From positions 2,315,842 to 2,379,841 of the forward strand of contig JAJEKV010000030.1 in assembly GCA_021234155.1 (NCBI GenBank): a stretch of DNA of 64,000 bases, in the 5' to 3' direction. Source of the stretch: Isoetes taiwanensis (taxonomy: Eukaryota; Streptophyta; Lycopodiopsida; Isoetales; Isoetaceae). The notes under the pieces are model-generated. The model was not told the DNA's origin and did not search any database. It saw only the letters and a program-made list of their open reading frames with translations. The position numbers were made by a program, and so were the translations under genes. Positions 18,827 to 59,620 of this stretch are shown here, piece by piece; position 1 is the stretch's first letter, and each line of letters opens with the position of its first letter.

Positions 18827-18828
18827 GT

Positions 18829-25047: not shown

Positions 25048-25517
25048 GGAGATCCCGAAGAAAGAATAAGCCCAAACAACGTAAGTAAGAAAGAGCCCAA
25101 TGCAAGAGATAAGAACTTCTTCAAGCTTGTCAGGAGGATTTAGGATGTTACAACGTTACTCCGCCCAAATATCAACGATGAATGGGAAAAAAATTATCCG
25201 ATGGAAACAATCGATTCACGTGCCGCATCCCGCGACCGTCTCTAAGCTCCAAGCAAACACCTTGTGGCCTGCGAACGCCTTTAAGCTTCGACCCCATCTT
25301 CAAAGCGATATCCACCGCCCGAGAAGTCCACTTCTCAAAAGCGTTTCAAAAATTTCGTATGATGATTATTTCGAGGGCTTAGAGGAAAACGGCTTTGAAA
25401 AGGGAAAAAGTGATAAGAAAGGAAAACGCTTTTTTGCCGGAAAAAGCGTTACATCCGGCAGCCGGAAAGGGACACCGGCGTGAGAGAGAAAGGGCAAAAA
25501 CTTTTTAAGTAAGTAGA
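25048..25517 (-). mobile_element. Helitron unit H2, 5' fragment only
   Basis: The 5' terminus TCTACTTACTT (complement of 25517-25507) is intact and abuts the CTAG of H3. Similarity to the other units stops at about 25048, roughly 470 bp in. This is the left end of the head-to-tail array. Confidence 0.8.
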
Positions 25518-28500
25518 CTAGTAAACGTGTGCCCGGCGTTGCCGGGCTAATGTCCTGACATGTATTTTTACTCGACTTTTTAACATCCGTAAGTGCAACT
25601 TCGACAACAACACATGTTGATATTGGCAAGAATGAACATTTTTTGCTTTTGTGGTTTTGTTCTTGAAATTGTTTAAGAGCAGTATCATCAATGTATTAAC
25701 TTTGTGTTTATGGATTTTTAAGAGTAGTTAAGTTAATTCAACAAAAATAGGTACATAAATGCAAAACACAAAATTTCGTTTTTGGTTCATTGGTATACTT
25801 TAGTTCATGACGGAACTCTAAATATGCATCTCCACATGGCGCACATCACTACCAACAGATAATATCTTACCCGGGGTAAAAGCGAAATGCACGAGCAAGT
25901 CATTGATTTGAACTGCCCACGATGTCTCACGACTATCAAGCACGTCAGACAACTCATCCCGAATGTAGGCTCGTATAATAGAATCAGATACCTAAACAAC
26001 CTAAAAATGACATGTTTCGCTCACTGAGAAAATAAAGATGACATTGTCATAACTTTAAGGCTTCGCTTCCACTCATTATTTCGATGAGTAGCCCAAGCTC
26101 CTCTTTCAACAGACAACTCAAAGTTTTCCCTATAATTGCTACTATTGACAATAAAGTATCTAAAAAACAAAAGATACATAATGCTGCTTACATCCAAACT
26201 TGTAATTTGAAAACATTAAAACCAAAATGTAAAAGCACTTTGCTTGCATGTTTGCAACATAAAATTTAGGAAACTTAAAGAGGGTATTATTGCACTTTTG
26301 AAACATTGCTGAAATATTACATGTCCGATGCTCTCTTGATATATTTGCAATTATCGGTTAGTAGAGCTCCAATATACATCGTTATCATGTGAAATGACAA
26401 AAAGAACTTAAAGAGTGCTGAGAAGACAAAGTGCTATAGTATTTTCCAAAGATTGCACTTACAAAAATGACAATAGGTTTTCCAACTTACATCAGAATTC
26501 AGATACAACTTCTGAATTAGTGCCATAAGAAAAAGGTTTTGCATTGCCATATATAGAGAATCCAAGTTATGCTTTACGCTTTCTGACCGAGTTTGCTGTG
26601 AAGCATACAAATAACGACTCCAACTTGCAAGTCTAAACTTGAGTGTAGTCAATTTTAAAATTAGTGTCATAACCAACATCTCTTGCATTGCCTGGTTCTA
26701 TTCCTAGAATTGTGACAGTAGGCACATAATGGCACCATGATGGTTTTATAAAACCCCATCTTCTTGTTGAACAATGTTCTCAGAATCCAAATTTTAGCAT
26801 CCTCGTAGCTCCCAAAGCTTTCTCTAGAAATCTATAGCAAGTTATTGCAGGACATGCTAATACAGTTAGGTGTTCCTGGCAAAGTAAATCTAGTAGACAT
26901 GAGAAAAGTAATTGATAAGTTGAGAAAGTGATTGATGCAATAGACCCCATCCTTTCTTCTTTTTGTCAACATTCAGGTGGCTTGATCACTCCATACAAAA
27001 TAAAAGTACCATCTTCAAATTAGAATCCATTTCAAATAGCATACAATGCTTTAACTAAATGAAAATGAATGAATGTATGCCTGGAAACTCCTTGGGACTG
27101 CTAGAGATAATAGAAACTTAACCAAAAACATAATGGAACTAAAAGATACTACATGTTTGGGCCAGCTGAGATGCACATGCTTTGAGAAGAAATCACTTAA
27201 GAATCTGAGCAAACCTACTTTCAAGAAAGTCCAAAAGATACAAAATGCCTTGAACAATGGTTACGCTATCATCCGCAACAAAAACATAAGGATGCAAGCA
27301 AGTTAAAGCCCGCCTCCTAAATGCGGTCAAGGCCACGCACTTTGAAAAACAATGTTGAGCACAAAATTGGGATAAAACAGTATAACAGAGTTGGCATTCC
27401 ATATTTTGAGTTTTCCTATCTAAACAACACTTCTGCACTGGTGGTATTTTAATATCTTATGCTTCAAGAAATAAAACCAAGTAAAAGCTTTCTATAGAAA
27501 CTCTCACCTTGCTTGCAGGATTTTGGCTGCACAACTTGAGACCTACAACCACCCCTCACTACAACCAAAATAATTCAAAACCCATAAGAAAACCAAAGAA
27601 AGCGTAAATTGAACCAAGGAAAGCCAAGATCCAAAAAGCCTCACCTAAGAATGCCTTTGTAGTAAAGTTATGGACATCTAAAACAATTCTGAATTCTTGT
27701 GAATGAGAGGCATAAATTGGCATCATCTTCTGATCAATGGCTCTTCTTGCTTTGTGTAATGGACCTTCCAAAAGCTAGCTTATCTTAAAGCAAATGAAAC
27801 CTCCCCGTAATCAAGAAGAAGTCGCATATGCAATCATTAAACTTTTTTTCGTTCACAAACGATTAACCGAAGTTTAACGATTACATATATCAAATGAATT
27901 GGAAACAAATAAAACAATCTTAAAGGTAATGAAATGATGCTACGTACCACTGCCTCCACAGAAGCTAGATTGCACCGCCCGGGACTCATTACTTGCCAGA
28001 TAACATGGCCTAAAACATAAAATTCTCTCAAGATCTCTCCTACAACAACACACAAATTTTAACAACGGAGTTAGGGTGATGGAAAATAATTGCAAAATTG
28101 AAAATAAAAGTAAGAAGGCTCTTATGTTTGTTGCTCACATCCTCCTTGTGCATAATATGCTATGCTCACCTTTATTATAACCATTTGTGAAAAACAATAA
28201 CATTAAATTCAAAACATTAAACCCGGGGTATACATAGATTTAGATTCGCATGTATCTGAAGATGCCCCCTAGCAACCTCATTTGAAGAAGTTGAAGATGG
28301 AGAAGTAAAAAGTGCACCCTATTTTTCTATTTGTAAACGTGTTCCTTCAGATCCTCTGTTTGCGGCCCAAGAAAAAGCGCATAAAGTTAACAGTAAGGCA
28401 ATAATTTACAGCAAGATTCAACTCTAAAGAAAATGCAAAACTTACCGCAGATGTCACCCCCAAGCTCCAAATTGTTATCCGGTTTTTTTGCTGCAAATAA

Positions 28501-29311
28501 AACTTTAAGAATCAAAGCATGCGTGATGTTTATTCAAAAGAAAACTTCAAGTTGCATGAGCTAATGTCTAAAACTCTTTGAGGATGAAGTCGAGCTTTTT
28601 TTGGAATATGTAGCATAATAAGGGGGGTTTTTTGTGTTTTTGCACGCTTTTCACAAAGGTTTTCCTAAGATTTCATGGCGTGATTCGAATGGATGTACTA
28701 ATGCGTACATCTAGAGTGCACCATTTCTTAGTCGTTGATTTAGCTTTTTTTTTTTCAATGGTCCAACATCCAAGGGCTCACAACAAAAGCCCTCTTTTTA
28801 TTTTAGGGGCTGAACATGCAAGCCTCGCGTGGATAAAGGTGGCATTCTTGCAAAAATTAATGTTCTTGTGATCGAGTGGAAACAGATTTGGAGTGGCGAG
28901 ATGATGATGCGGCCCGACTTGCAAAATTTGTCATCCGTCTCCTTGTAGATGCTTCCTCTTATATTTTAGGGTTTAGGGCAAGACTCAACGCCAGCGTGAG
29001 CATTCGTGGATTGAAGCAAAATCGAATAACGGATTTGTGATGCTACCATGGCTCGACTTGCAAAATTTGTCATCCGTCTCCTTGTAGATGCTTTTCTTTC
29101 ACTATTTTCCATGGCTGTTCTTGCAGATTCGTGGGAGACAGGTAAAGTGATTGGAGCATGTTACATAGATAAGCAAAGATCGGGTAGCTTGAGGAAATGC
29201 TATGGGGCTTAAATCATCGGAGGTGGCCAACATCGAGTAGCTATTGAATGCTTTTTGCCTCGCAAGGCCTTCCGGCCTAGCTTGCCCCTGTTTGATCTCG
29301 AACCACCTATG

Positions 29312-29720
29312 GCATTGGGTAAACTGAAGTTAGTGTTGGAGTATGCTTTACGTAAACATCCAAAGATTACAAAATGGTGCCGTGGGCATGTGGTGAAGAT
29401 CGTTACCGCATCAAAATTATTACTTTTACTCTCCTCTTTGCTTGCAAAAGTTGTAGTTATCATGTTTGGGGGGCAGATATGATATCTTTGATGAAAGGTA
29501 ATAAAGTCTTTCCCGAGCAAGAATTATCCGCATTAGGCAAAATTGCGTAAAAGCTTGGCAACTTGACTTTCGCTCTATTCATTGTTAGTAAACTTGAACT
29601 TTCAATTCTTCCTTCCGCGGTTATTCTGTATGATTGAGAAAGGACCGAGAGGATCAATCTTGGACGGAACAACAATATATGGAAGCAATCCTTTTGTGTT
29701 GGCGGTTGTTGAACACCGCT
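29312..29720 (+). pseudogene. Captured fragment: STAND/NB-ARC-like P-loop NTPase (H3)
   Basis: Plus-strand reading in broken frames. The cleaner H7 copy shows GKTELVLEYAYRNIQHYK and VLWVQGEDRYLHQNYLTLSS, the P-loop and following strand of the plant NTPase group typified by Arabidopsis At5g56220. A downstream part has GKIAEKLGNLTFALFIVSKL and LSILPSRLLQMI. In H3 frames are broken by indels. It is antisense to the Helitron strand. Confidence 0.7.
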
Positions 29721-30074
29721 TTAACCTTAAGTGAACAGTGGCTATAAACATGGCTTGGAGTATGTGGGCCGGGGCTCCAGTCCCATCCCCTAAAACCCGC
29801 TGGCTTGTATTCGCTGCAGAGTGTGGAAGAAAAAACCGGTTTGAAATTAATGGAATGGTGTAAAAACCGCCAAGGTTCTTTGTTATGCTCTGAACATAAA
29901 AAAGGATATCCAAGCCGGGCTTGCTCCTACCATACTTAGTGTTGCTCCATATGCGACCGTGTGCACCGCTTTAGTTGTATGGCTTCAATTCAGAATGTTA
30001 TGTGATGCCCTAGGGAGTACATATGTTCTTTGGTTCCAAATTTTTTGATTGAGCCTGCAACTTTTTTCTTACAG

Positions 30075-30209
30075 GTTCAGCTTCTACAACAGTTGAAATT
30101 TGAAGAAAATTTATTAAGTGGGCTAGAAATCAGCACAGTAGATGGGTTTCAAGGCCGAGAGAAAGAAGCAATTATTATTTCTATGGTTCGTTCAAATGCT
30201 CTACGAGAG
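30075..30209 (+). pseudogene. Captured exon: IGHMBP2/SMUBP2-like SF1 helicase (H3)
   Basis: One intact 135-bp exon with acceptor (TTTTTTCTTACAG) and donor (GAG|GTGAGC). Its 45 codons include [20 protein letters not shown], helicase motif V (DGFQGRE) and the approach to motif VI of UPF1-like SF1 helicases. The preceding VQLLQQLKF...LEIST fits IGHMBP2-type proteins. It is only one exon, so no activity is expected. Confidence 0.85.
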
Positions 30210-30249
30210 GTGAGCAGCAAATATTTTCTGTATGTGAAGTTCTTTCAAG

Positions 30250-30802
30250 TTAGCACCTGCACACGAGGAACATGTCTTAACTGTTGGAGGATATGGTGGC
30301 GTTGGAAGACATGCACGATTATCTGATACCTTACTACTTGACCAATTCAATGGGACTATCAAACATTTGGATACTATTGAGCCACCTTCTCCAAGAATGG
30401 GACAGGGGGCTTTTGTCTTAGGTGATAAGATGTGGGTGATAGGTGGGAGGGAGGATCCAAGCACCCCTCTCCAAGAAGTTATGGTCCTTGACATAGATAT
30501 GTTGTAGGCATCGCCATGCAGGTGCATCGCTTGGTTCAAGAATCTACATTCATGGGGGTTGAGGAAGATCTGTAGCTTATGGTGACCTGCGAGTGTTGGA
30601 TACCCACTTGAGACATTGGTCATTACTTGAATGTAGAGGCAACATACCATTTCCACGGTATTCACATTCATTAATTGCAATTGGTAACAAACTTTACACG
30701 TTTGGTGGATTTGATGGCGCCATTATCTTTGGTGATATTTATATGTTTGACATCTCCACATGTACATGGACGAAGGAGACCACAATTGGTGGCAAATTCT
30801 AA
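30250..30802 (+). pseudogene. Captured fragment: kelch domain of TYW2/3/4-like protein (H3)
   Basis: Several kelch blades are readable: [40 protein letters not shown] followed by GGREDP, RHRHAGASLGSRIYIHGG, YGDLRVLDTHLRHWSLLEC, HSLIAIGNKLYTFGGFDG and FGDIYMFDISTCTWTKE. Order and text fit the kelch section of plant tRNA wybutosine-synthesising protein 2/3/4. A stop after LDIDML and a shift near 30560 interrupt it; the last blade ends in TAA. The methyltransferase domains are absent. It follows the IGHMBP2-like exon after about 40 bp, so the two gene pieces are fused as Helitron passengers. Confidence 0.82.
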
Positions 30803-30968
30803 AATATTTTTTATAACTTGAGTATGTGGTGCAGCACCATAGTTTTTTTTCAATGCGTTTATCTTGTTTTCTTTGTCTGATTTTGTTAGGGCCCGAAGGG
30901 CCCAAATTTTTTTTTTTTTAACTACTAAAGATATAACTAATCAAAGAACATTATTAATATAAACTATT

Positions 30969-31221
30969 GCATCCAACACATTTAAATGAAAATCCCCCTG
31001 AAACCCCCTTTGGTTTGGGTGTATATTCACACGGGGGGTTACGTAGGGCAACGAGAGCTGTCGGATAGGCATATTTGCCCTTTATTCCAAGATCTGGACC
31101 GTACATAGCGATCCTCGTTTGTGGGGTATGCTTGTACAAGTTTATGTATACTGTATATTGAGGTTTGCAAAATACTATAAGATTTGAGGGAATGTACTTA
31201 ATGGCGTTAATTTTGTACATG
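30969..31221. mobile_element. MITE remnant in module (H3), one TIR, flipped interior
   Basis: The left inverted repeat GCATCCAACACATTTAAATG is present. The interior runs in the opposite orientation to the H6 copy, and the sequence stops at GTACATG before the second inverted repeat, joining TAGTGAATCC of the Helitron. Confidence 0.6.
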
Positions 31222-32107
31222 TAGTGAATCCTCATATTTGAATCTCGGTACTAAGACAAACCCCGCATCAAAAAAAGAAAACATATCACGGACCAAATAG
31301 AAACTTGTAATACCCGAATGGATTAGAATGGATAAAAATAGATGGGTCCCGCTATTGCTTACCATAAAACGAAATGGATAGATAAGCACAAAGCAAAAAG
31401 TAGGGGCCGACCAAAAAAAAGAAATAGGGTGGAATAGATGGCGATTGGCGCTTATTCGAAAGAAAAGAAGATGCCACCGCCATGTGCCATAGCCTCAAAA
31501 ATTATCTCCGGGAATCCAAAGACCTATTCACAAAAAATGGCGATCCTTGATTGAACAACCGGCAACCACATTTGTTCTAATCTTGATTTTTGCCGAGCCG
31601 CTTAGCTATGGCGTTTTGAGATCCCAAGAAAGAATAAGCCCAAAAACGTAAGTAAGAAAGAGCCCAATGCAAGAGATAAGAACTTCTTCAAGCTTGTCCG
31701 GAGGATTTAGGATGTTACAACGTTACCGCCTCCAACATCATCGGCGATGAATGGAGAAAAAAATTATCTCGATGAAACAATCGATTCACGGTGTCGCGAT
31801 CCCCGCGACCGCTCTAAGCTCCAAGCAAACACCTTGTGGCCTGCAACGCCTTTAAGATCCGACCCCATCTTCAAAGCGATATCCACCGCCCGAGAAGTCC
31901 GCTTCTCAACCGTTTCAAAAAATTTCAGATGATTATTTCGGGAGGGCTTAGAGGAAAACGGCTTTGAAAAGGGGAAAAGTGATAAGAACGCCCGAAAAGA
32001 AAGGTTTGGCCGAAAAACGTTTTTTGGTAGAAAAGCGTGAGTTTTGGCGGCCTACCGGAAAGGGACACCGCATCGCAAAAACCCCAAAAACTTTTTAAGT
32101 AAGTAGA

Positions 32108-35100
32108 CTGATAACGTGTGCGGCGTGCTTTTGCTAATGTCCCGACATGTATTTTTACTCGACTTTTTAACATCCTAAGTGCAACCGACAACAACACATG
32201 TTGATATTGGCAAGAATGAACATTTTTGCTTTTGTGGTTTTGTTCTTGAAATTGTTTAAGAGCAGTATCATCAATGTATTAACTTTGTGTTTATGGATTT
32301 CAGAAGAGTAGTTAAGTTAATTCAACAAAAAATAGGTACATAAATGCAAAACACAAAATTTCGTTTTGGTTCATTGGTATACTTTAGTTCATGATGGAAC
32401 TCTAAATATGCATCTCCACATGGCGCACATCACTACCAACAGATAATATCTTACCCGGGGTAAAAGCGAAATGCACGAGCAAGTCATTGATTTGAACTGC
32501 CCACGATGTCTCATGACTATCAAGCACGTCAGACAACTCATCCCGAATGTAGGCTCGTATAATAGAATCAGATACCTAAACAACCTAAAAATGACATGTT
32601 TCGCTCATTGAGAAAATAAAGATGACATTGTCATAACTTTAAGGCTTCGCTTCCATTCATTATTTCGATGAGTAGCCCAAGCTCCTCTTTCAACAGACAA
32701 CTCAAAGTTTTCCCTATAATTGCTACTATTGACAATAAAGTATCTAAAAAACAAAAGATACATAATGCTGCTTACATCCAAACTTGTAATTTGAAAAACA
32801 TTAAAAACCAAAATGTAAAAGCACTTTGCTTGCATGCTGCAACATAAAATTTAGGAAACTTAAAGAGGGTATTATTGCACTTGCTGAAACATTGCTGAAA
32901 TATTACATGTCTGATGCTCTCTTGATATATTTGCAATTATCAGTTATCAAGTAGAGCTCCAATATACATCGTTATCATGTGAAATGACAAAAAGAACTTA
33001 AGAGTGCTGAGAAGACAAAGTGCTATAGTATTTTCCAAAGATTGCACTTACAAAAATGACAATAGGTTTTCCAACTTACATCAGAATTCAGATACAACTT
33101 CTGAATTAGTGCCATAAGAAAAAGGTTTTGCATTGCCATATATAGAGAATCCAAGTTATGCTTTCTGCTCTGCACTGAGTTTGCTGCAGTTACAAATAAC
33201 GACTCCAACTTGCAAGTCTAAACTTGAGTGTAGTCAATTTTAAAATTAGTGTCATAACCAACATCTCTTGCATTGCCTGGTTCTATTCCTAGAATTGTGA
33301 CAGTAGGCACATAATGGCACCATGATGGTTTTATAAAACCCCATCTTCTTGTTGAACAATGTTCTCAGAATCCAAATTTTAGCATCCTCGTAGCTCCCAA
33401 AGCTTTCTCTAGAAATCTATAGCAAGTTATTGCAGGACATGCTAATACAGTTAGGTGTTCCTGGCAAAGTAAATCTAGTAGACATGAGAAAAGTAATTGA
33501 TAAGTTGAGAAAGTGATTGATGCAATAGACCCCATCCTTTCTTCTTTTTGTCAACATTCAGGTGGCTTCAGTCAGCTCCATACAAAATAAAAGTACCATC
33601 TTCAAATTAGAATCCATTCTGAAATAGCATACAATGCTTTAACTAAATGAAAATGAATGAATGTATGCCTGGAAACTCCTTGGGACTGCTAGAGATAATA
33701 GAAACTTAACCAAAAACATAATGGAACTAAAAGATACTACATGTTTGGGCCAGCTGAGATGCACATGCTTTGAGAAGAAATCACGAAGAATCTGGAGCAA
33801 ACCTACTTCGCAAAGTCCAAAAGATACAAAATGCCTTGAACAATGGTTCTGCTATCATCTGCAACAAAAAAACATAAGGATGCAAGCAAGTTAAAGCCCG
33901 CCTCCTAAATGCGGTCAAGGCCACGCACTTTGAAAAACAATGTTGAGCACAAAAATTGGGATAAAACAGTATAACAGAGTTGGCATTCCATATTTTGAGT
34001 TTTCCTATCTAAACAACACTTCTGCACTGGTGGTATTTTAATATCTTATGCTTCAAGAAATAAAACCAAGTAAAAGCTTTCTATAGAAACTCTCACCTTG
34101 CTTGCAGGATTTTGGCTGCACAACTTGAGACCTACAACCACCCCTCACTACAACCAAAATAATTCAAAACCCATAAGAAAACCAGCAAAGCAGAAATTGA
34201 ACCAAGGAAAGCCAAGATCCAAAAAGCCTCACTTATGGACATCTAAAACAATTCTGAATTCTTGTGAATGAGAGGCATAAATTGGCATCATCTTCTGATC
34301 AATGGCTCTTCTTGCTTTGTGTAATGGACCTTCCAAAAGCTAGCTTATCTTAAAGCAAATGAAACCTCCTGTAATCAAGAAGAAGCTGCATATGCAATCA
34401 TTAAACTTTTTTCGTTCACAAACGATTAACTGAGTTTAACGATTACATATATCAAATGAATTGGAAACAAATAAAACAATCTTAAAGGTAATGAAATGAT
34501 GCTACCGTACCCTGCCTCCACAGAGAAGCTAGATTGCACTGGCCCCGGGACTCATTACTTGCAGATAACATGGCCTAAAACATAAAATTCTCTCTGCATC
34601 TCTCCTACAACAACACACAAATTTTAACAACGGAGTTAGGGTGATGGAAAATAATTGCAAAATTGAAAATAAAAGTAAGAAGGCTCTTATGTTTGACTGC
34701 TCACATCCTCTGCACTGTGCATAATATGCTATGCTCACCTTTATTATAACCATTTGTGAAAAACAATAACATTAAATTCAAAACATTAAACCTGGGGGTA
34801 TACATAGATTTAGATTCGCATGTATCTGAAGATGCGCCCCTAGCAACCTCATTTGAAGAAGTTGAAGATGGAGAAGTAAAAGTGCACCCTATTTTTCTAT
34901 TTGTAAACGTGTTCCTTCTGTATCCTCTGTTTCGTGCCTGAAGAAAAAGCAGACAGGTTAACAGAAGGCAATAATTTACAGCAAGATTCAACTCTAAAGA
35001 AAATGCAAAACTTACCTGCATGTCACCCCTGAAGCTCCAGCCTGTTATCTGGGTTTTTTGCTGCAAATAAAACTTTCGTAATCAAAGCATGCGTGATGTT

Positions 35101-36060
35101 TATTCAAAAGAAAACTTCAAGTTGCATGAGCTAATGTCTAAAACTCTTTGAGGATGAAGCTGAGCTTTGCCGGATTAGTGAATCCTCATATTTGAATCCT
35201 GGTACTAAGACAAACCTGCATCAAAAAACAGAAAACATGCGGACCAAATAGAAACTTGTAATACCTGGAATGGATTAGAATGGATAGCAGCAGATGGGTC
35301 CTGCTATTGCTTACCAGAAAAACGAAATGGATAGATAAGCACAAAGCAAAAGTAGGGGCCAGACTGAAAAAAAAGAAATAGGGTGGAATAGATGGCGATT
35401 GGCGCTTATTCGAAAGAAAAGAAGATGCCACCGTCATGTGCCATAGCCTCAAAAATTATCTCTGGGAATCCAGTACCTATTCACAAAAAAATGGCGATCC
35501 TTGATTGAACAACTGGCAACCACATTTGTTCTAATCTTGATTTCTGCCGGAGCCGCTAGCTATGGCAGTGCTTGAGATCCTGAAGAAAGAATAAGCCCAA
35601 AAAACGTAAGTAAGAAAGAGCCCAATGCAAGAGATAAGAACTTCTTCAAGCTTGTCCGGAGGATTTAGGATGTTACAACGTTACCTGCTCCAGCGATCAG
35701 CGATGAATGGAGAAAAAAATTATCTGATGAAACAACTGATTCACAGGCTGCATCCTGCACCGTCTCTAAGCTCCAAGCAAACACCTTGTGGCCTGCAACG
35801 TCTTTAAGATCCGACCCCATCTTCAAAGCGATATCCACCGCCCGAGAAGTCCGCTTCTCAACCGTTTCAAAAAATTTCGTATGATTATTTCGAGGGCGAG
35901 AGGAAAATGGCTTTGAAAAGGGGAAAAAGTGATAAGAACGCCGGAAAAGAAAGGTCTGGCCGGAAAACGCGTTTTTGCCCGAAAAAAGCGTGAGTTTTGG
36001 CGGCCGGAAAGGGGACACCGGCATCAGCAAAAACCCCCAAAAACTTTTTAAGTAAGTAGA
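32108..36060 (-). mobile_element. Helitron unit H4, short form
   Basis: Bounded by a degenerate 3' terminus (CTGATAACGTG, hairpin lost) and a perfect 5' TCTACTTACTT at 36060 abutting H5. Length 3953 bp. Sites X (near 32254) and Y (near 35170) are empty. Its 5' part is among the cleanest copies and is nearly identical to that of H5. Confidence 0.87.
35665..36030 (-). pseudogene. Captured 5' exon of an unidentified gene (H4 copy)
   Basis: An ATG at 36030 opens a frame in the Helitron sense direction: a basic, Phe/Ser-rich leader resembling a targeting peptide, then KFFETVEKRTSRAVDIALK and MGSDLKDVAGHKVFAWSLE. A donor-like GCAG|GTAACG occurs near the end. The identical 121-codon frame is in H5 (42636-42271); diverged or shifted versions are in H1, H2, H3, H6, H7, H8 and H9. 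Family not recognised. It may be the first exon of the gene whose last exons lie near the Helitron 3' end. Confidence 0.45.
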
Positions 36061-36898
36061 CTAGTAAACGTGTGCCCGGCGTTGCCGGGCTAATGTCCTG
36101 ACATGTATTTTTACTCGACTTTTTAACATCCGTAAGTGCAACTTCGACAACAACACATGTTTGATATTGGCAAGAATGAACATTTTTTGCTTTTGTGGTT
36201 TTGTTCTTGAATATGTAGCATAATAACAGGGGGTTTTTTTTTGTGTTTTTGTACGCTTTTCACAAAGGTTTTCCTAAGATTTCATGGCGTGATTCGAATG
36301 GATGTACTAATGCGCATATCTAGAGTGCACCATTTCTTAGTCGTTGATTTAGCTTTTTTTTTTTCAATGGTCCAACATCCAAGGGCTCACAACAAAAGCC
36401 CTTTTTATTTTAGGGTCGAACATGCAAGCCTCGTGGATAGTAGGCATTCTTGCAAAAAATTAATGTTCTTGTGATCGAGTGGAAACAGATTTGGAGTGGC
36501 GAGGATGATGATGCGCCCGACTTGCAAAATTTGTCATCCTCCTAGATGCTTCCTCTTATATTTTAGGGTTTAGGGCAAGACTCAACGCCAGCGTGAGCAT
36601 TCGTGGGATTGAAGCAAATCAATAACCGGATTTGTGATGCTACCATGGCCCCGACTTGCAAAATTTGTCATCCGTCTCCTTGTAGATGCTTTTCTTTCAC
36701 TATTTTCCATGGTCGTTTTGCAGCATTCGTGGGAGATGTAAAGTGATTGGAGCATGTTACATAGATAAGCAAAAGATCGGCAGCTGTGGAAATGCTATGG
36801 GGCTTAAATCATCGGGTGGCCAACATCGTAGTAGCTATTGAATGCTTTTGCCCCCGCCTTCCGCCTAGCTTGCCCCGCTTGATCTCGAACCACCTATG

Positions 36899-37305
36899 GC
36901 ATTGGGTAAACCGAAAGTTAGTGTTGGAGTATGCTTACGTAAACATCCAAAGATTACAAAATGGTGTCAGGGTACGTGGTGAAGATCGCACCGCATCAAA
37001 ATTACCTTTTACTCTCTCCTCTTTGCTTGCAAAAGTCAGAGTTATCATGTTTGAGGGGCGATATGATATCTTTGATGAAAGGTAATAAAGTCTTTCCCGA
37101 AAGCAAGAATTATCCGCAGATTAGGCAAAATTGCGTAAAAGCTTGGCAACTTGACTTTCGCCTATTCATTGTTAGTAAACTTCGAACTTTCAATTTTTCC
37201 TTCACCTGTTACGTATGATTGAGAAAGGACCGTAGAGGATCAATCTTGGACAGCACAATATACTGGAAGTCCGCCCTTTGTGTTGGCGCTGTTGAACACG
37301 CTTTA
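36899..37305 (+). pseudogene. Captured P-loop NTPase fragment (H5)
   Basis: Same captured segment as in H3 and H7, with more indels (the P-loop codons now read ...LGKPKV...). Recognisable by LVLEYAYVNIQ and AWQLDFR-frame sequence. Confidence 0.6.
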
Positions 37306-37663
37306 ACCTTTAAGTGAACAGCGGGCTATAAACATGGCTTGAGTACAGCCGGCCGGCCTGTGTCCCATCCCCTAAACCCGTTGGCTTGTATTGTCAGCAG
37401 AGTGTGGGAAGAAAATCCTACCGGGTTTGAAATTAATGGAATGGTGTAAAACCGCCAAGGTTGTCAAGTATGCCCCGAACATAAAAAAAGGATATCCAAT
37501 GGCTTTTGCTCCTACCATATTTAGTGTTGTTCCATACATGCAGCTCCTGTACCAAACCGCTTAGTTGTATGGCTTCAATCTTAATGTTATGTGATGCCCT
37601 AGGAGTACACATATGTTCTTTGGTTCCAATTTTTGATTGAGCCCCCGAACTTTTTTCTTGGCT

Positions 37664-37798
37664 GTGCCTTCTACAACAAGCTTGAAATTTGAAGAAAATT
37701 TATTAAGTGGGCTAGAAATCAGCACAGAGATGGGTTTCAAGGCCGAGAGAAAGAAGCAATTATTATTTCTATGGTTCGCTCAAATGTTTCTACGAGAG
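37664..37798 (+). pseudogene. Captured IGHMBP2-like helicase exon (H5)
   Basis: Matches the H3 exon, but a short deletion turns the motif V region into [11 protein letters not shown] by frameshift. The acceptor tract is also altered. Confidence 0.7.
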
Positions 37799-37840
37799 GT
37801 GAGCAAAAAATATTTTCTCAGATGTGAAGTTCTTTCAAGT

Positions 37841-38384
37841 TAGCACCGCACACGAGGAACATGTCTTAATCATGGAGGATATGGTGGCGCTGGAAGACAT
37901 GCACGATTATCCGACACCTTACTACTTGACCAATTCAATGGGACTATCAAACATTTGATACTATTGAGCCACCTTTCCAAGAATGGGGGAGGGGCTTTTG
38001 TCTTAGGTGATAAGATGTGGGTGATAGGTGAGGGAGGATCCAAGCACCCCCCTCCAAGAAGTTATGGTCCTGACATAGATATGTTTTGTAGGCATCGCCA
38101 TGTGTGCATCGCTTGGTTCAAGAATCTACATTCATGGGGTTGAGGAAGATCTCAGAGCTTATGGTGACCCCGAAAGTGTTGATACCCACTTGAGACATTG
38201 GTCATTACTTGAATGTAGAGGCAACATACCATTTCCACGGGATTCACATTCATTAATTGCAATTGGTAACAAACTTTACACGTTTGGTGGATTTGATGGC
38301 ACCATTATCTTTGGTGATATTTATATGTTTGACATCTCCACATGTACATGGACGAAGGAGACCACAATTGGTGGCAAATTCTAA
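37841..38384 (+). pseudogene. Captured TYW2/3/4-like kelch fragment (H5)
   Basis: The last blades are readable in one 94-codon frame: ASLGSRIYIHGVEEDLRAYG, LIAIGNKLYTFGGFDGTIIF and FDISTCTWTKE, ending in TAA. The earlier blades are frameshifted. Confidence 0.75.
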
Positions 38385-38544
38385 AATATTTTTATAACTT
38401 GAGTATGTGGAAAAGACCATAGTTTTTTTTTCAACGCGCTATCTTGTTTTCTTTGTTCGATTTTGTTAGGGCCCGAAGGGCCCAAATTTTTTTTTTAACT
38501 ACCAAAGATATAATTAATAAAGAACATTATTAATATAAACTATT

Positions 38545-48500: not shown

Positions 48501-50209
48501 GGTACTAAGACAAACCCGCATCAAAAAACAGAAAACATGCGGACCAAATAGAAACTTGTAATACACTGGAATGGATTAGAATGGATAAGCGTTAGATGGG
48601 TCCTGCTATTGCTTACCGGAAAAACGAAATGGATAGATAAGCACAAAGCAAAAGTAGGGGCGGGAAAAAAAAAAAGAAATAGGGTGGAATAGATGGCGAT
48701 GGCGCTTATTGAAAGAAAAGAAGATGCCCTTGTCATGTGCCATAGCCTCAAAAATTATCTCACGGGAATCGGTACCTATTCACAAAAATGGCGATCCTTG
48801 ATTGAACAAGCGGCAACCACATTTGTTCTAATCTTGATTTCTGCCGGAGCCGCTAGCTATGGCGGTGCTTGAGATCCTGAAGAAAGAATAAGCCCAAAAA
48901 CGTAAGTAAGAATGAGCTCAATGCAAGAGATAAGAACTTCTTCAAGCTTGTCATGGGAGGATTTAGGATGTTACAACGTTACACGCGCTCCGGCCGATCG
49001 GCGATGAATGGAGAAAAAAATTATCGATGAAACAAGCGATTCACGGTACTGCATCCGCACCGTCTCTAAGCTCCAAGCAAACACCTTGTGGCCCTGCGTC
49101 TTTAAGATCCGACCCCATCTTCAAAGCGATATCCACCGCCCGAGAAGTCCGCTTCTCAACCGTTTCAAAAAATTTCGTATGATTATTTCGAGGGCGAGGA
49201 AAATGGCTTTGAAAAGGGGAAAAAAGTGATAAGAACGCCGGAAAAGAAAGGTCTGGCCGGAAAACGCGTTTTTGCCGGAAAAAAGCGTGAGTTTTGGCGG
49301 CCGGAAAGGGGACACCGGCATCAGCAAAAACCCCCAAAAACTTTTTAAGTAAGTAGACTAGTAAACGTGTGCCGGCGTTTCCTAAAACGTATCTGACATG
49401 TATTTTTACTCGACTTTTTAACATCCGTAAGTGCAACTTCGACAACAACACATGTTTGATATTGGCAAGAATGAACATTTTTTGCTTTTGTGGTTTTGTT
49501 CTTGAATATGTAGCATAATAACGAGGGGTTTTTTTGTGTTTTTTGCACGCTTTTCACAAAGGTTTTCCTAAGATTTCATGGCGTATTCGAATGGATGTAC
49601 TAATGCATTACATCTAGAGTGCACCATTTCTTAAGTCGTTGATTTAGCTTTTTTTTTTTTTTCAATGGTCCAACATCCAAGGGCTCACAACAAAAGCCCT
49701 CTTTTTATTTTAGGGCTGAACATGCAAGCCTCGTGGATAGCAGGGCATTCTTGCAAAAAATTAATGTTCTTGTGATCAGAGTGGAAACAGATTTGGAGTG
49801 GCGAGGATGATGATGCGGCCTGACTTGCAAAATTTGTCATCCGTCTCCTTGTAGATGCTTCCTCTTATATTTTAGGGTTTAGGGCAAGACTCAACGCCAG
49901 GCGTGAGCATTCGTGGATTGAAGCAGTCCGAATAACCGGATTTGTGATGCTACCATGGCCTGACTTGCAAAATTTGTCATCCGTCTCCTTGTAGATGCTT
50001 TTCTTTCACTATTTTCCATGGCTGTTCTTGCAGATTCGTGGGAGACAGGTAAAGTGATTGGAGCATGTTACATAGATAAGCAGCATCGGGTAGCCAGGGA
50101 AATGCTATGGGGCTTAAATCATCGGGTGGCCAACATCGGGTAGCTATTGAATGCTTTTGCCCTGCGTCTTCCGGCCTAGCTTGCCCTGTTTGATCTCGAA
50201 CCACCTATG

Positions 50210-50612
50210 GCATTGGGTAAAACTGAGTTAGTGTTGGAGTATGCTTACAGAAACATCCAGCATTACAAAATGGTGCTGTGGGTACAGGGTGAAGATCGTT
50301 ACCTGCATCAAAATTACCTTACTCTCTCCTCTTTGCTTGCAAAAGCTGTAGTTATCATGTTTGGAGGGGGCAGATATGATATCTTTGATGAAAGGTAATA
50401 AAGTCTTTCCTGAGCAAGAATTATCCGCATTAGGCAAAATTGCAGAAAAGCTTGGCAACTTGACTTTCGCTCTATTCATTGTTAGTAAACTTCTGGAACT
50501 TTCAATTCTTCCTTCACGGTTGTTACAGATGATTGAGAAAGGACCAGAGGATCAATCTTGGACAGACACAATATACGGAAGCCGTCCTTTTGTGTTGGCA
50601 GTTGTTGAACAC
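50210..50612 (+). pseudogene. Captured P-loop NTPase fragment (H7, cleanest copy)
   Basis: Reads MALGKTELVLEYAYRNIQHY and VLWVQGEDRYLHQNYLTLSS (P-loop GKT region), then in another frame LSALGKIAEKLGNLTFALFI and LSILPSRLLQMIEKGPEDQS. These fit two adjacent exons of the At5g56220-type NTPase, the first resembling its P-loop and the second its helical region. The DNA between (about 50345-50400) looks like residual intron or deleted sequence. This copy keeps the most codons, useful for identifying the donor gene. Confidence 0.75.
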
Positions 50613-50651
50613 TGCATATAACTAACAGTAACATTATTAATATAAACTATT

Positions 50652-50904
50652 GCATCCAACACATTTAAATGAAAATCCCCCTGAAACCCCCTTTGGTTTG
50701 GGTGTATATTCACACGGGGGGTTACGTAGGGCAACGAGAGCTGTCGGATGGGCATATTTGCCCTTTATTCCAAGATCTGGACCGTACATAGCGATCCTCG
50801 TTTGTGGGGTATGCTTGTACAAGTTTATGTATACTGTATATTGAGGTTTGCAAAATACTATAAGATTTGAGGGAATGTACTTAATGGCGTTAATTTTGTA
50901 CATG
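50652..50904. mobile_element. MITE remnant in module (H7)
   Basis: Same flipped, right-truncated form as in H3 (ends GTACATG then TAGTGAATCC), and unlike the full copies in H5 and H6. Confidence 0.6.
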
Positions 50905-51790
50905 TAGTGAATCCTCATATTTGAATCCTGGTACTAAGACAAACCTGCATCAAAAAACAGAAAACATGCGGACCAAATAGAAACTTGTAATACCTGGAAT
51001 GGATTAGAATGGATAGCAGCAGATGGGTCCTGCTATTGCTTACCAGAAAAACGAAATGGATAGATAAGCACAAAGCAAAAGTAGGGGCCAGACTGAAAAA
51101 AAAGAAATAGGGTGGAATAGATGGCGATTGGCGCTTATTCGAAAGAAAAGAAGATGCCACCGTCATGTGCCATAACCTCAAAAATTATCTCACGGGAATC
51201 CAGTACCTATTCACAAAAAATGGCGATCCTTGATTGAACAATCGGCAACCACATTTGTTCTAATCTTGATTTGGCCGGAGCCGCTAGCTATGGCGGTGCT
51301 TGAGATCCCTGAAGAAAGAATAAGCCCAAAAAACGTAAGCAAGAAAGAGCCCAATGCAAGAGATAAGAACTTCTTCAAGCTTGTCCGGAGGATTTAGGAT
51401 GTTACAACGTTACACCCGCTCCGATCATTGATGAATGGAGAAAAAAATTATCCGATGAAACAAGCGATTCACGGTGCATCCCCGCACCGAATCTCTAAGC
51501 TCCAAGCAAACACCTTGTGGCTCGCAACGTCTTTTAAGATCCGACCCCATCTTCAAAAGCGATATCCACCGCCCGAGAAGTCCGCTTCTCAACCGTTTCA
51601 AAAATTTCGTATGATTATTTCGAGGGCGAGAGGAAAACGGCTTTGAAAAGGGAAAAAAAAGTGATAAGAACGTAGGAAAAAGAAAGGTTTAAGTAAAAAA
51701 ACGCGTTTTGCGGGAAAAAGCGTGAGTTTTGGCGGCCGGAAGGGGACACCGGCATCGACAAAAACCCCAAAAACTTTTTAAGTAAGTAGA

Positions 51791-54700
51791 CTAGTAAGCG
51801 TGTGCGGCGTTCTTGCTAATGTCTGACATGTATTTTTACTCGACTTTTTAACATCCGTAAGTGCAACTTCGACAACAACACATGTTGATATTGGCAAGAA
51901 TGAACATTTTTTGCTTTTGTGGTTTTGTTCTTGAAATTGTTTAAGAGCAGTATAATCAATGTATTAACTTTGTGTTTATGGATTTCAGAAGAGTAGTTAA
52001 GTTAATTCAACAAAAAATAGGTACATAAATGCAAAACACAAAATTTCATTTTGGTTCATTGGTATACTTTAGTTCATGATGGAACTCTAAATATGCATCT
52101 CCACATGGCGCACATCACTACCAACAGATAATATCTTACCCGGGGTAAAAGCGAAATGCACGAGCAAGTCATTGATTTGAACTGCCCACGATGTCTCACG
52201 ACTATCAAGCACGTCAGACAACTCATCCCGAATGTAGGCTCGTATAATAGAATCAGATACCTAAACAACCTAAAAATGACATGTTTCGCTCATTGAGAAA
52301 ATAAAGATGACATTGTCATAACTTTAAGGCTTCGCTTCCACTCATTATTTCGATGAGTAGCCCAAGCTCCTCTTTCAACAAACAACTCAAAGTTTTCCCT
52401 ATAATTGCTACTATTGACAATAAAGTATCTAAAAAACAAAAGATACATAATGCTGCTTACATCCAAACTTGTAATTTGAAAAACATTAAAAACCAAAATG
52501 TAAAAGCACTTTGCTTGCATCTTTGCAACATAAAATTTAGGAAACTTAAAGAGGGTATTATTGCACTTGCTGAAACATTGCTGAAATATTACATGTCTGA
52601 TGCTCTCTTGATATATTTGCAATTATCAGTTATCAAGTAGAGCTCCAATATACATCGTTATCATGTGAAATGACAAAAAGAACTTAAGAGTGCTGAGAAG
52701 ACAAAGTGCTATAGTATTTTCCAAAGATTGCACTTACAAAAATGACAATAGGTTTTCCAACTTACATCAGAATTCAGATACAACCGAATTAGTGCCATAA
52801 GAAAAAGGTTTTGCATTGCCATATATAGAGAATCCAAGTTATGCTTTCGCTTTCTGACCGAGTTTGCTGCAGTTACAAATAACGACTCCAACTTGCAAGT
52901 CTAAACTTGAGTGTAGTCAATTTTAAAATTAGTGTCATAACCAACATCTCTTGCATTGCCTGGTTCTATTCCTAGAATTGTGACAGTAGGCACATAATGG
53001 CACCATGATGGTTTTATAAAACCCCATCTTCTTGTTGAACAATGTTCTCAGAATCCAAATTTTAGCATCCTCGTAGCTCCCAAAGCTTTCTCTAGAAATC
53101 TATAGCAAGTTATTGCGGGACATGCTAATCTGAGTTAGGTGTTCTGGCAAAGTAAATCTAGTAGACATGAGAAAAGTAATTGATAAGTTGAGAAAGTGAT
53201 TGATGCAATAGACCCCATCCTTTCTTCTTTTTGTCAACATTCGGGTGGCTTGATCGACTCCATACAAAATAAAAGTACCATCTTCAAATTAGAATCCATT
53301 TACGAAATAGCATACAATGCTTTAACTAAATGAAAATGAATGAATGTATGCCCGGAAACTCCTTGGGACTGCTAGAGATAATAGAAACTTAACCAAAAAC
53401 ATAATGGAACTAAAAGATACTACATGTTTGGGCCAGCTGAGATGCACATGCTTTGAGAAGAAATCACGAAGAATCTGGAGCAAACCTACTTCGCAAAGTC
53501 CAAAAGATACAAAATGCCTTGAACAATGGTTCTGCTATCATCTGCAACAAAAAAACATAAGAATGCAAGCAAGTTAAAGCCCGCCTCCTAAATGCGGTCA
53601 AGGCCACGCACTTTGAAAAACAATGTTGAGCACAAAAATTGGGATAAAAGCGATTATATGAGTTGGCATTCCATATTTTGAGTTTTCCTATCTAAACAAA
53701 CATAGACCGGTGGTATTTTAATATCTTATGCTTCAAGAAATAAAACCAAGTAAAAGCTTTCTATAGAAACTCTCACCTTGCTTGCAGGATTTTGGCTGCA
53801 CAACTTGAGACCTACAACCACCCCTCACTACAACCAAAATAATTCAAAACCCATAAGAAAACCAGCAAAGCAGAAATTGAACCAAGGAAAGCCAAGATCC
53901 AAAAAGCCTCACCTAAGAATGCCTTTGTAGTAAAGTTATGGACATCTAAAACAATTCTGAATTCTTGTGAATGAGAGGCATAAATTGGCATCATCTTCTG
54001 ATCAATGGCTCTTCTTGCTTTGTGTAATGGACCTTCCAAAAGCTAGCTTATCTTAAAGCAAATGAAACCTCCTGTAATCAAGAAGAAGCTGCATATGCAA
54101 TCATTAAACTTTTTTCGTTCACAAACGATTAACTGAGTTTAACGATTACATATATCAAATGAATTGGAAACAAATAAAACAATCTTAAAGGTAATGAAAT
54201 GATGCTACCGTACCCTGCCTCCACAGAGAAGCTAGATTGCACTGGCCCCGGGACTCATTACTTGCAGATAACATGGCCTAAAACATAAAATTCTCTCTGC
54301 ATCTCTCCTACAACAACACACAAATTTTAACAACGGAGTTAGGGTGATGGAAAATAATTGCAAAATTGAAAATAAAAGTAAGAAGGCTCTTATGTTTGAC
54401 TGCTCACATCCTCTGCACTGTGCATAATATGCTATGCTCACCTTTATTATAACCATTTGTGAAAAACAATAACATTAAATTCAAAACATTAAACCTGGGG
54501 GTATACATAGATTTAGATTCGCATGTATCTGAAGATGCGCCCCTAGCAACCTCATTTGAAGAAGTTGAAGATGGAGAAGTAAAAGTGCACCCTATTTTTC
54601 TATTTGTAAAGCGTGTTCCTTCAGTATCCTCTGTTTTTGCACTGAAGAAAAAAGCGACAGGTTAACGAAGGCAATAATTTACAGCAAGATTCAACTCTAA

Positions 54701-55757
54701 AGAAAATGCAAAACTTACCGCATGTCACCTGAAGCTCCAGCACATTATCCGGGTTTTTGCTGCAAATAAAACTTTCGTAATCAAAGCATGCGTGATGTTT
54801 ATTCAAAAGAAAACTTCAAGTTGCATGAGCTAATGTCTAAAACTCTTTGAGGATGAAGCTGAGCTTTCTTGGGATTAGTGAATCCTCATATTTGAATCGG
54901 TACTAAGACAAACCCGCATCAAAAAAAGAAAACATCACGGACCAAATAGAAACTTGTAATACGGAATGGATTAGAATGGATAGCAGCGAGATGGGTCACG
55001 CTATTGCTTACGAGGAAAAAACGAAATGGATAGATAAGCACAAAGCAAAAGTAGGGGCGGACTGAAAAAAAAGAAATAGGGTGGAATAGATGGCGATTGG
55101 CGCTTATTCGAAAAGAAAAGAAGATGCCACCGTCATGTGCCATAGCCTCAAAAATTATCTCACGGGAATCCAGTACCTATTCACAAAAAATGGCGATCCT
55201 TGATTGAACAACGGCAACCACATTTGTTCTAATCTTGATTTCTCGCCGAGCCGCTAGCTATGGCGGTGCTTGAGATCTGAAGAAAGAATAAGCCCAAAAA
55301 CGTAAGTAAGAAAGAGCCCAATGCAAGAGATAAGAACTTCTTCAAGCTTGTCCGGGGAGGATTTAGGATGTTACAACGTTACCGCCTCCGGTGATCGGCG
55401 ATGAATGGAGAAAAAAATTATCGATGAAACAATCGATTCACGGCCGCATCCACGCACCGTCTCTAAGCTCCAAGCAAACACCTTGTGGCCTGCAACGTCT
55501 TTAAGATCCGACCCCATCTTCAAAGCGATATCCACCGCCCGAGAAGTCCGCTTCTCAACCGTTTCAAAAAATTTCGTATGATTATTTCGAGGGCGAGAGG
55601 AAAACGGCTTTGAAAAGGGGAAAAAGTGATAAGAACGCCGGAAAAGAAAGGTTTGGCCGGAAAACGCGTTTTTGCCGGAAAAAAGCGTGAGTTTTGGCGG
55701 CCGGAAAGGGGACACCGGCATCAGCAAAAACCCCCAAAAACTTTTTAAGTAAGTAGA
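51791..55757 (-). mobile_element. Helitron unit H8, short form
   Basis: 3' CTAG at 51791 (hairpin degraded to GCGGCGTTCTTGC); perfect 5' TC at 55757. Length 3967 bp. Both module sites are empty (near 51935 and 54880). Carries the same captured-gene exons as H4. Confidence 0.87.
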
Positions 55758-58700
55758 CTAGTAAACGTGTGCCCGGCGTTGCCGGGCTAATGTCCTGACA
55801 TGTATTTTTACTCGACTTTTTAACATCCGTAAGTGCAACTTCGACAACAACACATGTTGATATTGGCAAGAATGAACATTTTTTGCTTTTGTGGTTTTGT
55901 TCTTGAAATTGTTTAAGAGCAGTATCATCAATGTATTAACTTTGTGTTTATGGATTTCAGAAGAGTAGTTAAGTTAATTCAACAAAAAATAGGTACATAA
56001 ATGCAAAACACAAAATTTCGTTTTGGTTCATTGGTATACTTTAGTTCATGATGGAACTCTAAATATGCATCTCCACATGGCGCACATCACTACCAACAGA
56101 TAATATCTTACCCGGGGTAAAAGCGAAATGCACGAGCAAGTCATTGATTTGAACTGCCCACGATGTCTCATGACTATCAAGCACGTCAGACAACTCATCC
56201 CGAATGTAGGCTCGTATAATAGAATCAGATACCTAAACAACCTAAAAATGACATGTTTAAGCTCAGCGAGAAAATAAAGATGACATTGTCATAACTTTTA
56301 AGGCTTCGCTTCCATTCATTATTTCGATGAGTAGCCCAAGCTCCTCTTTCAACAGACAACTCAAAGTTTTCCCTATAATTGCTACTATTGACAATAAAGT
56401 ATCTAAAAAACAAAAGATACATAATGCTGCTTACATCCAAACTTGTAATTTGAAAAACATTAAAAACCAAAATGTAAAAGCACTTTGCTTGCATCTTTTG
56501 CAACATAAAATTTAGGAAACTTAAAGAGGGTATTATTGCACTTGCTGAAACATTCTTTGAAATATTACATGTCGATGCTCTCTTGATATATTTGCAATTA
56601 TCGGTTATCAAGTAGAGCTCAATATACATCGTTATCATGTGAAATGACAAAAAAAGAACTTAAGAGTCTTTGAGAAGACAAAGTGCTATAGTATTTTCCA
56701 AAGATTGCACTTACAAAAATGACAATAGGTTTTCCAACTTACATGAATTCGGATACAACTTCTGAATTAGTGCCATAAGAAAAAGGTTTTGCATTGCCAT
56801 ATATAGAGAATCAAGTTATGCTTTTCTACGCTCTGACCGAAGTTTCTTTGCAGAAGTTACAAATAACGACTCCAACTTGCAAGTCTAAACTTGAGTGTAG
56901 TCAATTTTAAAATTAGTGTCATAACCAACATCTCTTGCATTGCCTGGTTCTATTCCTAGAATTGTGACAGTAGGCACATAATGGCACCATGATGGTTTTA
57001 TAAAACCCCATCTTCTTGTTGAACAATGTTCTCAGAATCCAAATTTTAGCATCCTCGTAGCTCCCAAAGCTTTCTCTAGAAATCTATAGCAAGTTATTGC
57101 AGGACATGCTAATACAGTTAGGTGTTCCTGGCAAAGTAAATCTAGTAGACATGAGAAAAGTAATTGATAAGTTGAGAAAGTGATTGATGCAATAGACCCC
57201 ATCCTTTCTTCTTCTTGTCAACATTCAGGTGGCTTCAGCTCCATACAAAATAAAAGTACCATCTTCAAATTAGAATCCATTCTGAAATAGCATACAATGC
57301 TTTAACTAAATGAAAATGAATGAATGTATGCCTGGAAACTCCTTGGGACTGCTAGAGATAATAGAAACTTAACCAAAAACATAATGGAACTAAAAGATAC
57401 TACATGTTTGGGCCAGCTGAGATGCACATGCTTTGAGAAGAAATCACGAAGAATCACGGAGCAAACCACGCCCGCCAAAGTCCAAAAGATACAAAATGCC
57501 TTGAACAATGGTTCTGCTATCATCTGCAACAAAAAAACATAAGGATGCAAGCAAGTTAAAGCCCGCCTCCTAAATGCGGTCAAGGCCACGCACTTTGAAA
57601 AACAATGTTGAGCACAAAAATTGGGATAAAACAGTATAACAGAGTTGGCATTCCATATTTTGAGTTTTCCTATCTAAACAACACTTCTGCACTGGTGGTA
57701 TTTTAATATCTTATGCTTCAAGAAATAAAACCAAGTAAAAGCTTTCTATAGAAACTCTCACCTTGCTTGCAGGATTTTGGCTGCACAACTTGAGACCTAC
57801 AACCACCCCTCACTACAACCAAAATAATTCAAAACCCATAAGAAAACCAGCAAAGCAGAAATTGAACCAAGGAAAGCCAAGATCCAAAAAGCCTCACCTA
57901 AGAATGCCTTTGTAGTAAAGTTATTGACATTTAAAACAATTCTAAATTCTTGTGAATGAGAGGCATAAATTGGCATCATCTTCTGATCAATGGCTCTTCT
58001 TGCTTTGTGTAATGGACCTTCCAAAAGCTAGCTTATCTTAAAGCAAATGAAACCTCCTGTAATCAAGAAGAAGCTGCATATGCAATCATTAAACTTTTTC
58101 GTTCACAAGCGATTAAGCGAAGTTTAACGATTACATATATCAAATGAATTGGAAACAAATAAAACAATCTTAAAGGTAATGAAATGATGCTACCGTACCC
58201 TGCCTCCACAGAGAAGCTAGATTGCACTGGCCCCGGGACTCATTACTTGCAGATAACATGGCCTAAAACATAAAATTCTCTCTGCATCTCTCCTACAACA
58301 ACACACAAATTTTAACAACGGAGTTAGGGTGATGGAAAATAATTGCAAAATTGAAAATAAAAGTAAAGAAGGCTCTTATGTTATTTGCTCACATCCTCAC
58401 ACTTGCTACATGCATAATATGTTATGCTCACCTTTATTATAACCATTTGTGAAAAACAATAACATTAAATTCAAAACATTAAACCTGGGGGTATACATAG
58501 ATTTAGATCGCATGTATGTATAGAAGATAAGCCCCTAGCAACCTCATTTGAAGAAGTTGAAGATGGAGAAGTAAAAGTGCACCCTATTTTTCTATTTGTA
58601 AGCGTGTTCATACGTATCCTCTGTTTTAGTGCACGAAGAAAAAGCGCACGAGGTTAACGAAGGCAATAATTTCTGACAAGATTCAACTCTAAAGAAAATG

Positions 58701-59620
58701 CAAAACTTACACGCATGTCACCCCTGAAGCTCGGCAAGCATTATCACGGGTTTTTGCTGCAAATAAAACTTTCAGTAATCAAAGCATGCGTGATGTTTAT
58801 TCAAAAGAAAACTTCAAGTTGCATGAGCTAATGTCTAAAACTCTTTGAGGATGAAGCCGAGCTTTTTGGGATTAGTGAATCCTCATATTTGAATCATGGT
58901 ACTAAGACAAACTGCATCAAAAACGAGAAAACATCATGGACCAAATAGAAACTTGTAATACGGAATGGATTAGAATGGATATAGCGGCCGAGATGGGTCC
59001 TGCTATTGCTTACGAGAAAAACGAAATGGATAGATAAGCACAAAGCAAAAGTAGGGGCGGGCTGAAAAAAAAAGAAATAGGGTGGAATAGATGGCGATTG
59101 GCTTATTGAAAGAAAAGAAGATGCCACCGTCATGTGCCATAGCCTCAAAAATTATCTCACGGGAATCCGGTACCTATTCACAAAAAATGGCGATCCTTGA
59201 TTGAACAACTGGCAACCACATTTGTTCTAATCTTGATTTATTACGGGCCGCTAGCTATGGCGATGCTTGAGATCCCTGAAGAAAGAATAAGCCCAAAAAG
59301 CGTAAGTAAGAAAGAGCCCAATGCAAGAGATAAGAACTTCTTCAAGCTTGTCCAGGAGGATTTAGGATGTTACAGCGTTACCTGCTCAGCGATCGGCGAT
59401 GAATGGAGAAAAAAATTATCGATGAAACAATCGATTCACAAACGCATCCCCGCGAATCTCTAAGCTCAAGCAAACACCTTGTGGCACGCAACGTCTTTAA
59501 GATCGACCCCATCTTCAAAGCGATATCCACCGCCCGAAGTCCGGCTTCTCAACCGTTTCAAAAAATTTAGGTATGATTATTTCGAGGGTAGAGAGGAAAG
59601 CGGCTTTGAAAAAAGGGGAA
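55758..59620 (-). mobile_element. Helitron unit H9, short form, 5'-truncated
   Basis: Perfect 3' CTAG and hairpin (55771-55787). Similarity ends near 59620 in GGCTTTGAAAA..GGGGAA, about 120-150 bp before the expected 5' terminus, where the unrelated AG-rich region begins. Sites X and Y are empty. This is the right end of the array. Confidence 0.85.

Follow-up and report, generated by a model that had tools for sequence, protein, structure and literature searches.

Helitrons stacked at exact junctions in the Isoetes taiwanensis genome: insertion at a resident 5' end and local multiplication as a possible origin

How do Helitrons come to lie nose to tail, without a single base between one element and the next? 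The question is raised by a locus 2.3 Mb along a 17.6 Mb contig (C1035) of Isoetes taiwanensis, of which we analysed a stretch of 64,000 nt (C1035:2315842-2379841, hereafter the window; coordinates are window positions unless a contig is named). Genome-wide counts refer to the assembly of 1,658,258,908 bases in 1110 contigs. This assembly was produced from nanopore R9.4.1 reads with miniasm, racon, pilon and Bionano maps, and the word 'Helitron' has no occurrence in the main text of the genome paper (PMC8566536). Within the window, no Rfam family was found at gathering scores. Left of the array, Ty3/gypsy-type gag-pol frames with Retrotrans_gag, RVT_1, RNase H and integrase zinc-binding domains occupy positions 11850-15098 (plus strand).

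On sequence features, the elements are Helitrons. Helitron ends are characterised by a 5' TC and a 3' CTRR, and TC is present at all seven junctions in the window and exact CTAG at six, the exception being CTGA at 32108. The hairpin expected about 10 bases before the 3' end has a 7-bp stem and a 3-base loop, with a folding energy of -13.8 kcal/mol (RNA parameters) in E2, E4 and E8; as read, there is no hairpin in E3, E5, E6 and E7, and our recount agrees with the earlier observation of an intact, exact 17-nt hairpin at three of the seven junctions. Insertion between A and T could be read from the flanking letters: an A precedes 10 of 10 5' ends lying outside junctions (in five stretches, not all independent), and a T directly follows CTAG at the four delimited array ends (4/4) and in two further elements, L050 and L051. 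A transposase (RepHel) is represented between the same kind of ends. The Helitron_like_N domain has at least 150 matches in the genome (150 scored among 1813 candidates), and one of them, at C1018:33465824, is flanked by exact junctions 13.4 kb apart (TC at 33456295 and 33469736). A 5 kb piece of this unit, covering the Helitron_like_N part, holds an open frame of 1431 aa or more in which the domain scores 1.4e-57. This unit is likely to be the autonomous partner, judging by its domain and its ends.

An earlier description of this DNA, made from its letters (the sequence-only reading), held up in part. Its seven base-exact head-to-tail junctions are all there: the minus-strand terminus TCTACTTACTT (at 25517, 32107, 36060, 42666, 49357, 51790 and 55757) abuts the 3' end of its neighbour in 7/7 cases, with zero bases between. 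The limits it gave to the array and the alternation of forms that it saw did not survive. The left edge had been placed at 25048, as if a fragment began there, but positions 25048-25517 form the 5' part of E1 (18119-25517, minus strand; 3449 bp without the nested E0), a complete Helitron from a different family and the 3'-most element of the stack. E1 ends in GCCCGGCAACGCCGGGC...CTAG (18148-18119), followed by a host T, and this hairpin with CTAG at 18119 rules out a 3'-truncated fragment. E1 resembles the other units over some 470 bp of its 5' end (82-86% as read) and over the 57 bp of its 3' end (93%). The E2-E1 coverage being just 0.08, these two are classed as different families. Directly left of E1 lies a 444 bp imperfect palindrome (17469-17912, 78% to its own reverse complement). 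Nested within E1, in the opposite orientation, is a copy of the S family with an A before its 5' end, E0 (19656 to about 23605, plus strand), whose last bases past the hairpin (ACACGTTTACTAG) are unmatched to the other units. At this 3' end (23587-23620) the match breaks off right past the hairpin, with a T next to it, which looks like copying that ended about 11 bases early; miscalling is a possible alternative.

From 25518 rightwards, the forms do not alternate but follow the order long, short, long, long, deleted, short, short, all on the minus strand. E2 (25518-32107, 6590 bp) is a long form, A, in which an insert separates the 5' piece from the body; E3 (32108-36060, 3953 bp) is a short form, S, whose terminus in the assembly is CTGA instead of CTAG; E4 (36061-42666, 6606 bp) and E5 (42667-49357, 6691 bp) are long forms of a second type, B; E6 (49358-51790, 2433 bp) has an A-like left side and a B-like right side, the body being gone; and E7 (51791-55757, 3967 bp) and E8 (55758-59621) are short forms, E8 without its first 134 bp, which were not found in the 7.4 kb searched to its right. 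Small deletions affect E3 (23 bp) and E4 (about 22 bp). The junction between E2 and E1 (CTAG|TC, 25517..25518) joins two families, and the remaining six, such as that between E8 and E7 (55757..55758), are intra-family; by coverage at 80% identity or more, four window joins scored as same, one as partial (E7-E6) and one as different (E2-E1).

Likewise, the array does not end at 59620. Further exact junctions are found right of the window, at window-coordinates 71153 and 75101, and the 5'-most unit begins ACATA|TCTACTTAAAAAG at 79045, with a host A in front. Altogether, about a dozen Helitron copies lie nose to tail at one site, and the outer host A and host T bracket the whole stack if it goes back to one insertion; some 10 kb of different sequence, read only in part, intervene between E8 and the S unit that follows on the right, so that the outer A may come from an insertion of its own. 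The sequence immediately right of E8 (59622-60700) is similar to the region upstream of an array on contig C953 (85% over 271 bp).

The age of the copies depends on how their differences are read. Seven copies (E0, E2, E3, E4, E5, E7 and E8) were aligned with inserts omitted. Substitutions number 697 in 15,954 unit-sites at 8 bp or less from a CG or CHG present in any copy, versus 14 in 10,510 unit-sites away from these motifs, where 0.13% of bases differ from the majority; eight other motif classes masked in the same way (8 bp) leave 0.45-2.12%. A homogeneous run on contig C317 presents the same pattern (855 in 17,685 near CG/CHG, 41 in 11,515 elsewhere). Pure C>T/G>A change accounts for 184 of the 459 CG/CHG sites that are altered; the other 275 do not fit such decay. 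The apparent divergence of 5-7% is thus ruled out as a measure of age, and the apparent decay, including the lost hairpins, is probably for the most part nanopore miscalling at CG/CHG, which would bring true divergence to near 0.1-0.3%. Nanopore miscalling of methylated cytosine is known at bacterial Dcm motifs (PMC6591954), and by analogy it may extend to CG/CHG in plants; a search of open papers for nanopore errors at CHG gave no match to the full query, the support coming from the bacterial Dcm motifs. It also fits that the miscalls sit in repeats poorly polished by short reads. The hairpin 'losses' of E3, E5, E6 and E7 fall inside the miscall hotspot and, with differences concentrated at CG/CHG, are not safe evidence. 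More generally, hairpin loss and divergence in nanopore-based plant assemblies can be base-calling artefacts.

The S unit multiplied at this locus. A 38-mer of its body, picked from an invariant run, has 9 exact matches in the genome, all on C1035 within 57 kb (7 in the window and 2 to its right), and 2 more on C914 and C919 with 2 mismatches each; exact matches at one locus only indicate that the run grew locally. A marker for the S 3' end matched 9 times: 5 of these matches are in the window, one of them with 1 mismatch, and each of the 4 outside it has 1 mismatch. The 2 S units right of the window that carry the body 38-mer escape this marker, and the one whose 3' end was read has an extra A. 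Miscalls and indels break exact markers, and copies are consequently undercounted. Two of the four outside matches, L050 (C941) and L051 (C1075), are other Helitrons sharing the S 3' sequence only. Over this shared stretch, E7 differs from L050, a solo relative, at 6 of 839 clean sites, versus 1 of 903 from E3 and 2 of 915 from E8 in the array. With their unrelated 5' parts and S-like 3' sequence, L050 and L051 have the appearance of modular exchange between families.

The long forms record a later layer of change. A 2.6 kb insert lies at the boundary between 5' piece and body in form A (E2, 28596-31223), and at the boundary between body and 3' end in form B (E4, 36201-38892; E5, 42799-45529), where one end of it is inverted. 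It carries fragments of AAA_12 helicase and Kelch genes (plus strand) and recurs on other contigs, in several cases with an end inverted as in form B; being a dispersed repeat, it is ruled out as a private gene capture. E6 combines the A junction on its left with the B junction on its right. Allowing at most 1 mismatch, the marker for the left junction of A has 2 matches in the genome (E2 and E6) and that for the right junction of B has 3 (E4, E5 and E6), all in the array; the B-left marker has 1 (E5), E4 being missed through different letters there. Being both confined to the array and repeated in it, the A and B markers point to forms that most likely arose here and were then duplicated here, and, once the inserts were there, blocks were most likely copied and lost on the spot. 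To cite the mix of forms against segmental amplification, as the earlier description did, is therefore a weak argument, both long-form markers being array-only with A-left present twice and B-right three times. Duplication of higher-order blocks ([S A] pairs) was considered, and reliable sites are too few to judge it. Off CG/CHG, unit pairs have a small number of variants in common, most of them differences in homopolymer length or at the edges of hotspots, with conflicting groupings and no tree.

Exact junctions are not peculiar to this array. A genome-wide search for CTAG|TCTACTTACTT, proposed by the sequence-only reading, returned 276 exact junctions against 2 for a reversed-pattern control, and ATCTACTTACTTAAA occurs 681 times (control 11). 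Junctions thus make up about 29% of exact 5' ends (276/957), a total that comprises these two flanks and sums two patterns differing in letters; random A|T insertion at the AT frequency of the window predicts about 0.003, and the 276 junctions are far beyond chance. A stricter 5' end has 275 copies, 176 with an A directly before. Five stretches, fetched for their clustering of junctions and 5' ends and hence not random, hold 23 junctions, one reading TTAG, of which 4 were not delimited. The 19 classified junctions outside the window comprise 7 of the same family, 1 partial and 11 different (by the same coverage criterion as in the window, after removal of two duplicate rows that arose from internal starts). 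C907 has three different-family joins in a row, and on C317 six homogeneous 4.2 kb units stand behind an unlike first unit. Of the 9 matches to a 38-mer of the C317 unit, the run accounts for 6 and an opposite copy alongside for 1; the others lie on C1100 (exact) and on C907 (2 mismatches). Homogeneous runs are therefore present at two loci, each with an opposite-oriented copy nearby. Joins between different families (11/19) cannot be explained by the read-through of one element, but can be by insertion at a resident 5' end; recombination between shared ends may shuffle families, so that independent joining events may number fewer than junctions.

Other arrangements were seen in these stretches. 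At C317:39330-79865 (L029-L033), two Helitron stacks converge with their 3' ends facing, about 1.9 kb apart, and the 5' terminus at 42202 of the same contig has a 15-base duplication. At C953:1110329-1118000 (L047), direct repeats of 2.6 kb that start A|TCTACTTACTT are more than 99% identical and unlike CTAG|TC junctions.

We favour, with a probability of roughly 0.55, a stack at one A|T site in which S multiplied locally, most likely by rolling-circle replication, and was later remodelled. Its members would be Helitrons that lack a transposase gene and share one A|T target site. E1 would have inserted first, its host T persisting; S, which resembles E1 only near the ends, would then have inserted at the A|T formed by the host A and the 5' TC of E1, creating the exact CTAG|TC. 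Multiplication of S in place would have given the head-to-tail run of about ten units (7 in the window and 3 to its right, some incomplete), most likely through multi-turn rolling-circle replication integrated as a multimer. Later, the dispersed repeat with its gene fragments would have inserted twice, the resulting forms would have duplicated within the array, and a deletion would have fused an A unit to a B unit (E6). The order of insertion, the sharing of one site by the units past the 10 kb break, and rolling circle over unequal exchange as the first multiplier are what we infer here.

The earlier interpretation, in which rolling-circle transposition ran past its terminator, is supported in part: the identity of the elements and their exact junctions hold. 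For the homogeneous run, with its unit at this locus only and its copies near identical away from CG/CHG, read-through remains a good if unproven account; for the junction between two families at 25517/25518 it fails. The first S-S junctions are most simply made by rolling-circle multimers, and at a later stage blocks must also have been duplicated and deleted. Several observations weigh against the favoured reading: a single rolling-circle run should yield one form only, some units were duplicated after they had formed (A is there twice and B in three units), so that recombination or block copying is active here, and the 38-mer of the C317 unit has one exact match on another contig.

The most serious competitor, which we hold to be distinctly less probable, is that a chance S-S or S-E1 adjacency was expanded by unequal crossing over alone, without rolling-circle multiplication. 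Once two units exist, unequal exchange predicts the same junctions and the same single locus; the repeated, array-only A and B markers imply that block duplication happened, and E6 is a product of recombination or deletion. The first exact S-S junction would still be needed, however, and, B-form markers apart, the few and conflicting variants shared off CG/CHG reveal no clear block duplication of S; homogeneous runs, each with its opposite-oriented neighbour, are moreover present at two loci.

Separate insertion of each unit from dispersed sources, at the 5' A|T of the previous unit, is improbable for the S run. It fits the E2/E1 junction and the 11/19 different-family junctions, and the A|T at every 5' end is a permissible target, an argument already made for maize r1 (PMC2267711), but no source of the S body was found elsewhere in the assembly, all 9 exact 38-mer matches being local and the 2 others having 2 mismatches.

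Miniasm preserves raw read structure. That fewer units were expanded by the assembly is hardly credible, in spite of the poor base quality in repeats, the clustering of differences at CG/CHG, and the identity of E3 and E4 over alignment columns 200-600 with unit-typical changes in common there, because the units are structurally unlike (forms A and B, the fusion, the deletions of 23 bp in E3 and about 22 bp in E4) and the assembly has a miniasm layout with Bionano-map scaffolding (PMC8566536).

A further reading, held tentatively and with odds somewhat below even, is that Helitrons land preferentially at the 5' end of other Helitrons already in place. A resident A|TC would be at once a legal A|T target and the nick site of its own transposase, and a nicked donor end could accept the ends of foreign elements. 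If so, ordered stacks of unrelated Helitrons should form, with the oldest at the 3' end, and these would be movable as composites.

Tandem Helitrons are already known, and it is the scale and the family mixture that look unusual here. Among the titles and abstract openings of open papers, a set without Xiong et al. 2016 and Pritham and Feschotte 2007, we found no mixed-family Helitron stacks at this scale. The available text on maize r1 describes an exact CTAG|TC join of different Helitrons (at G/T, not A/T) and weighs two orders of events, one being insertion at the A|T of a resident 5' end (PMC2267711); that is one pair, whereas we count 276 exact junctions genome-wide, with long stacks. Tandem truncated Helitrons in plant centromeres were reported by Xiong, Dooner and Du in 2016 (as cited in PMC12628747, PMC10095026 and PMC5148889) and are ascribed, in these citing texts, to rolling-circle amplification. 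Those arrays are described there as decayed and truncated, many with several 5' ends per 3' end, whereas in the present array every unit from E1 to E7 retains its two ends, different families are combined and the changes of form are resolved. In the fungus Metarhizium acridum, a single case of three tandem Helitrons led to the same two explanations, repeated 5'-end insertion or rolling-circle replication, in the part of the paper available, which is titled on non-canonical elements (PMC5148889). Helraiser, a reconstructed bat Helitron, shares the hairpin terminator, and its precise head-to-tail circles and bypass of the 3' end have been demonstrated (PMC4778049, PMC5876387); it is an experimental system, and no natural mixed-family stack is described in the portions of these papers at hand. 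Helitron copy termination and target choice have so far been argued from adjacent pairs and tandem arrays, and the 276 exact junctions within and between families in I. taiwanensis constitute a natural data set for weighing read-through against insertion into a resident 5' end.
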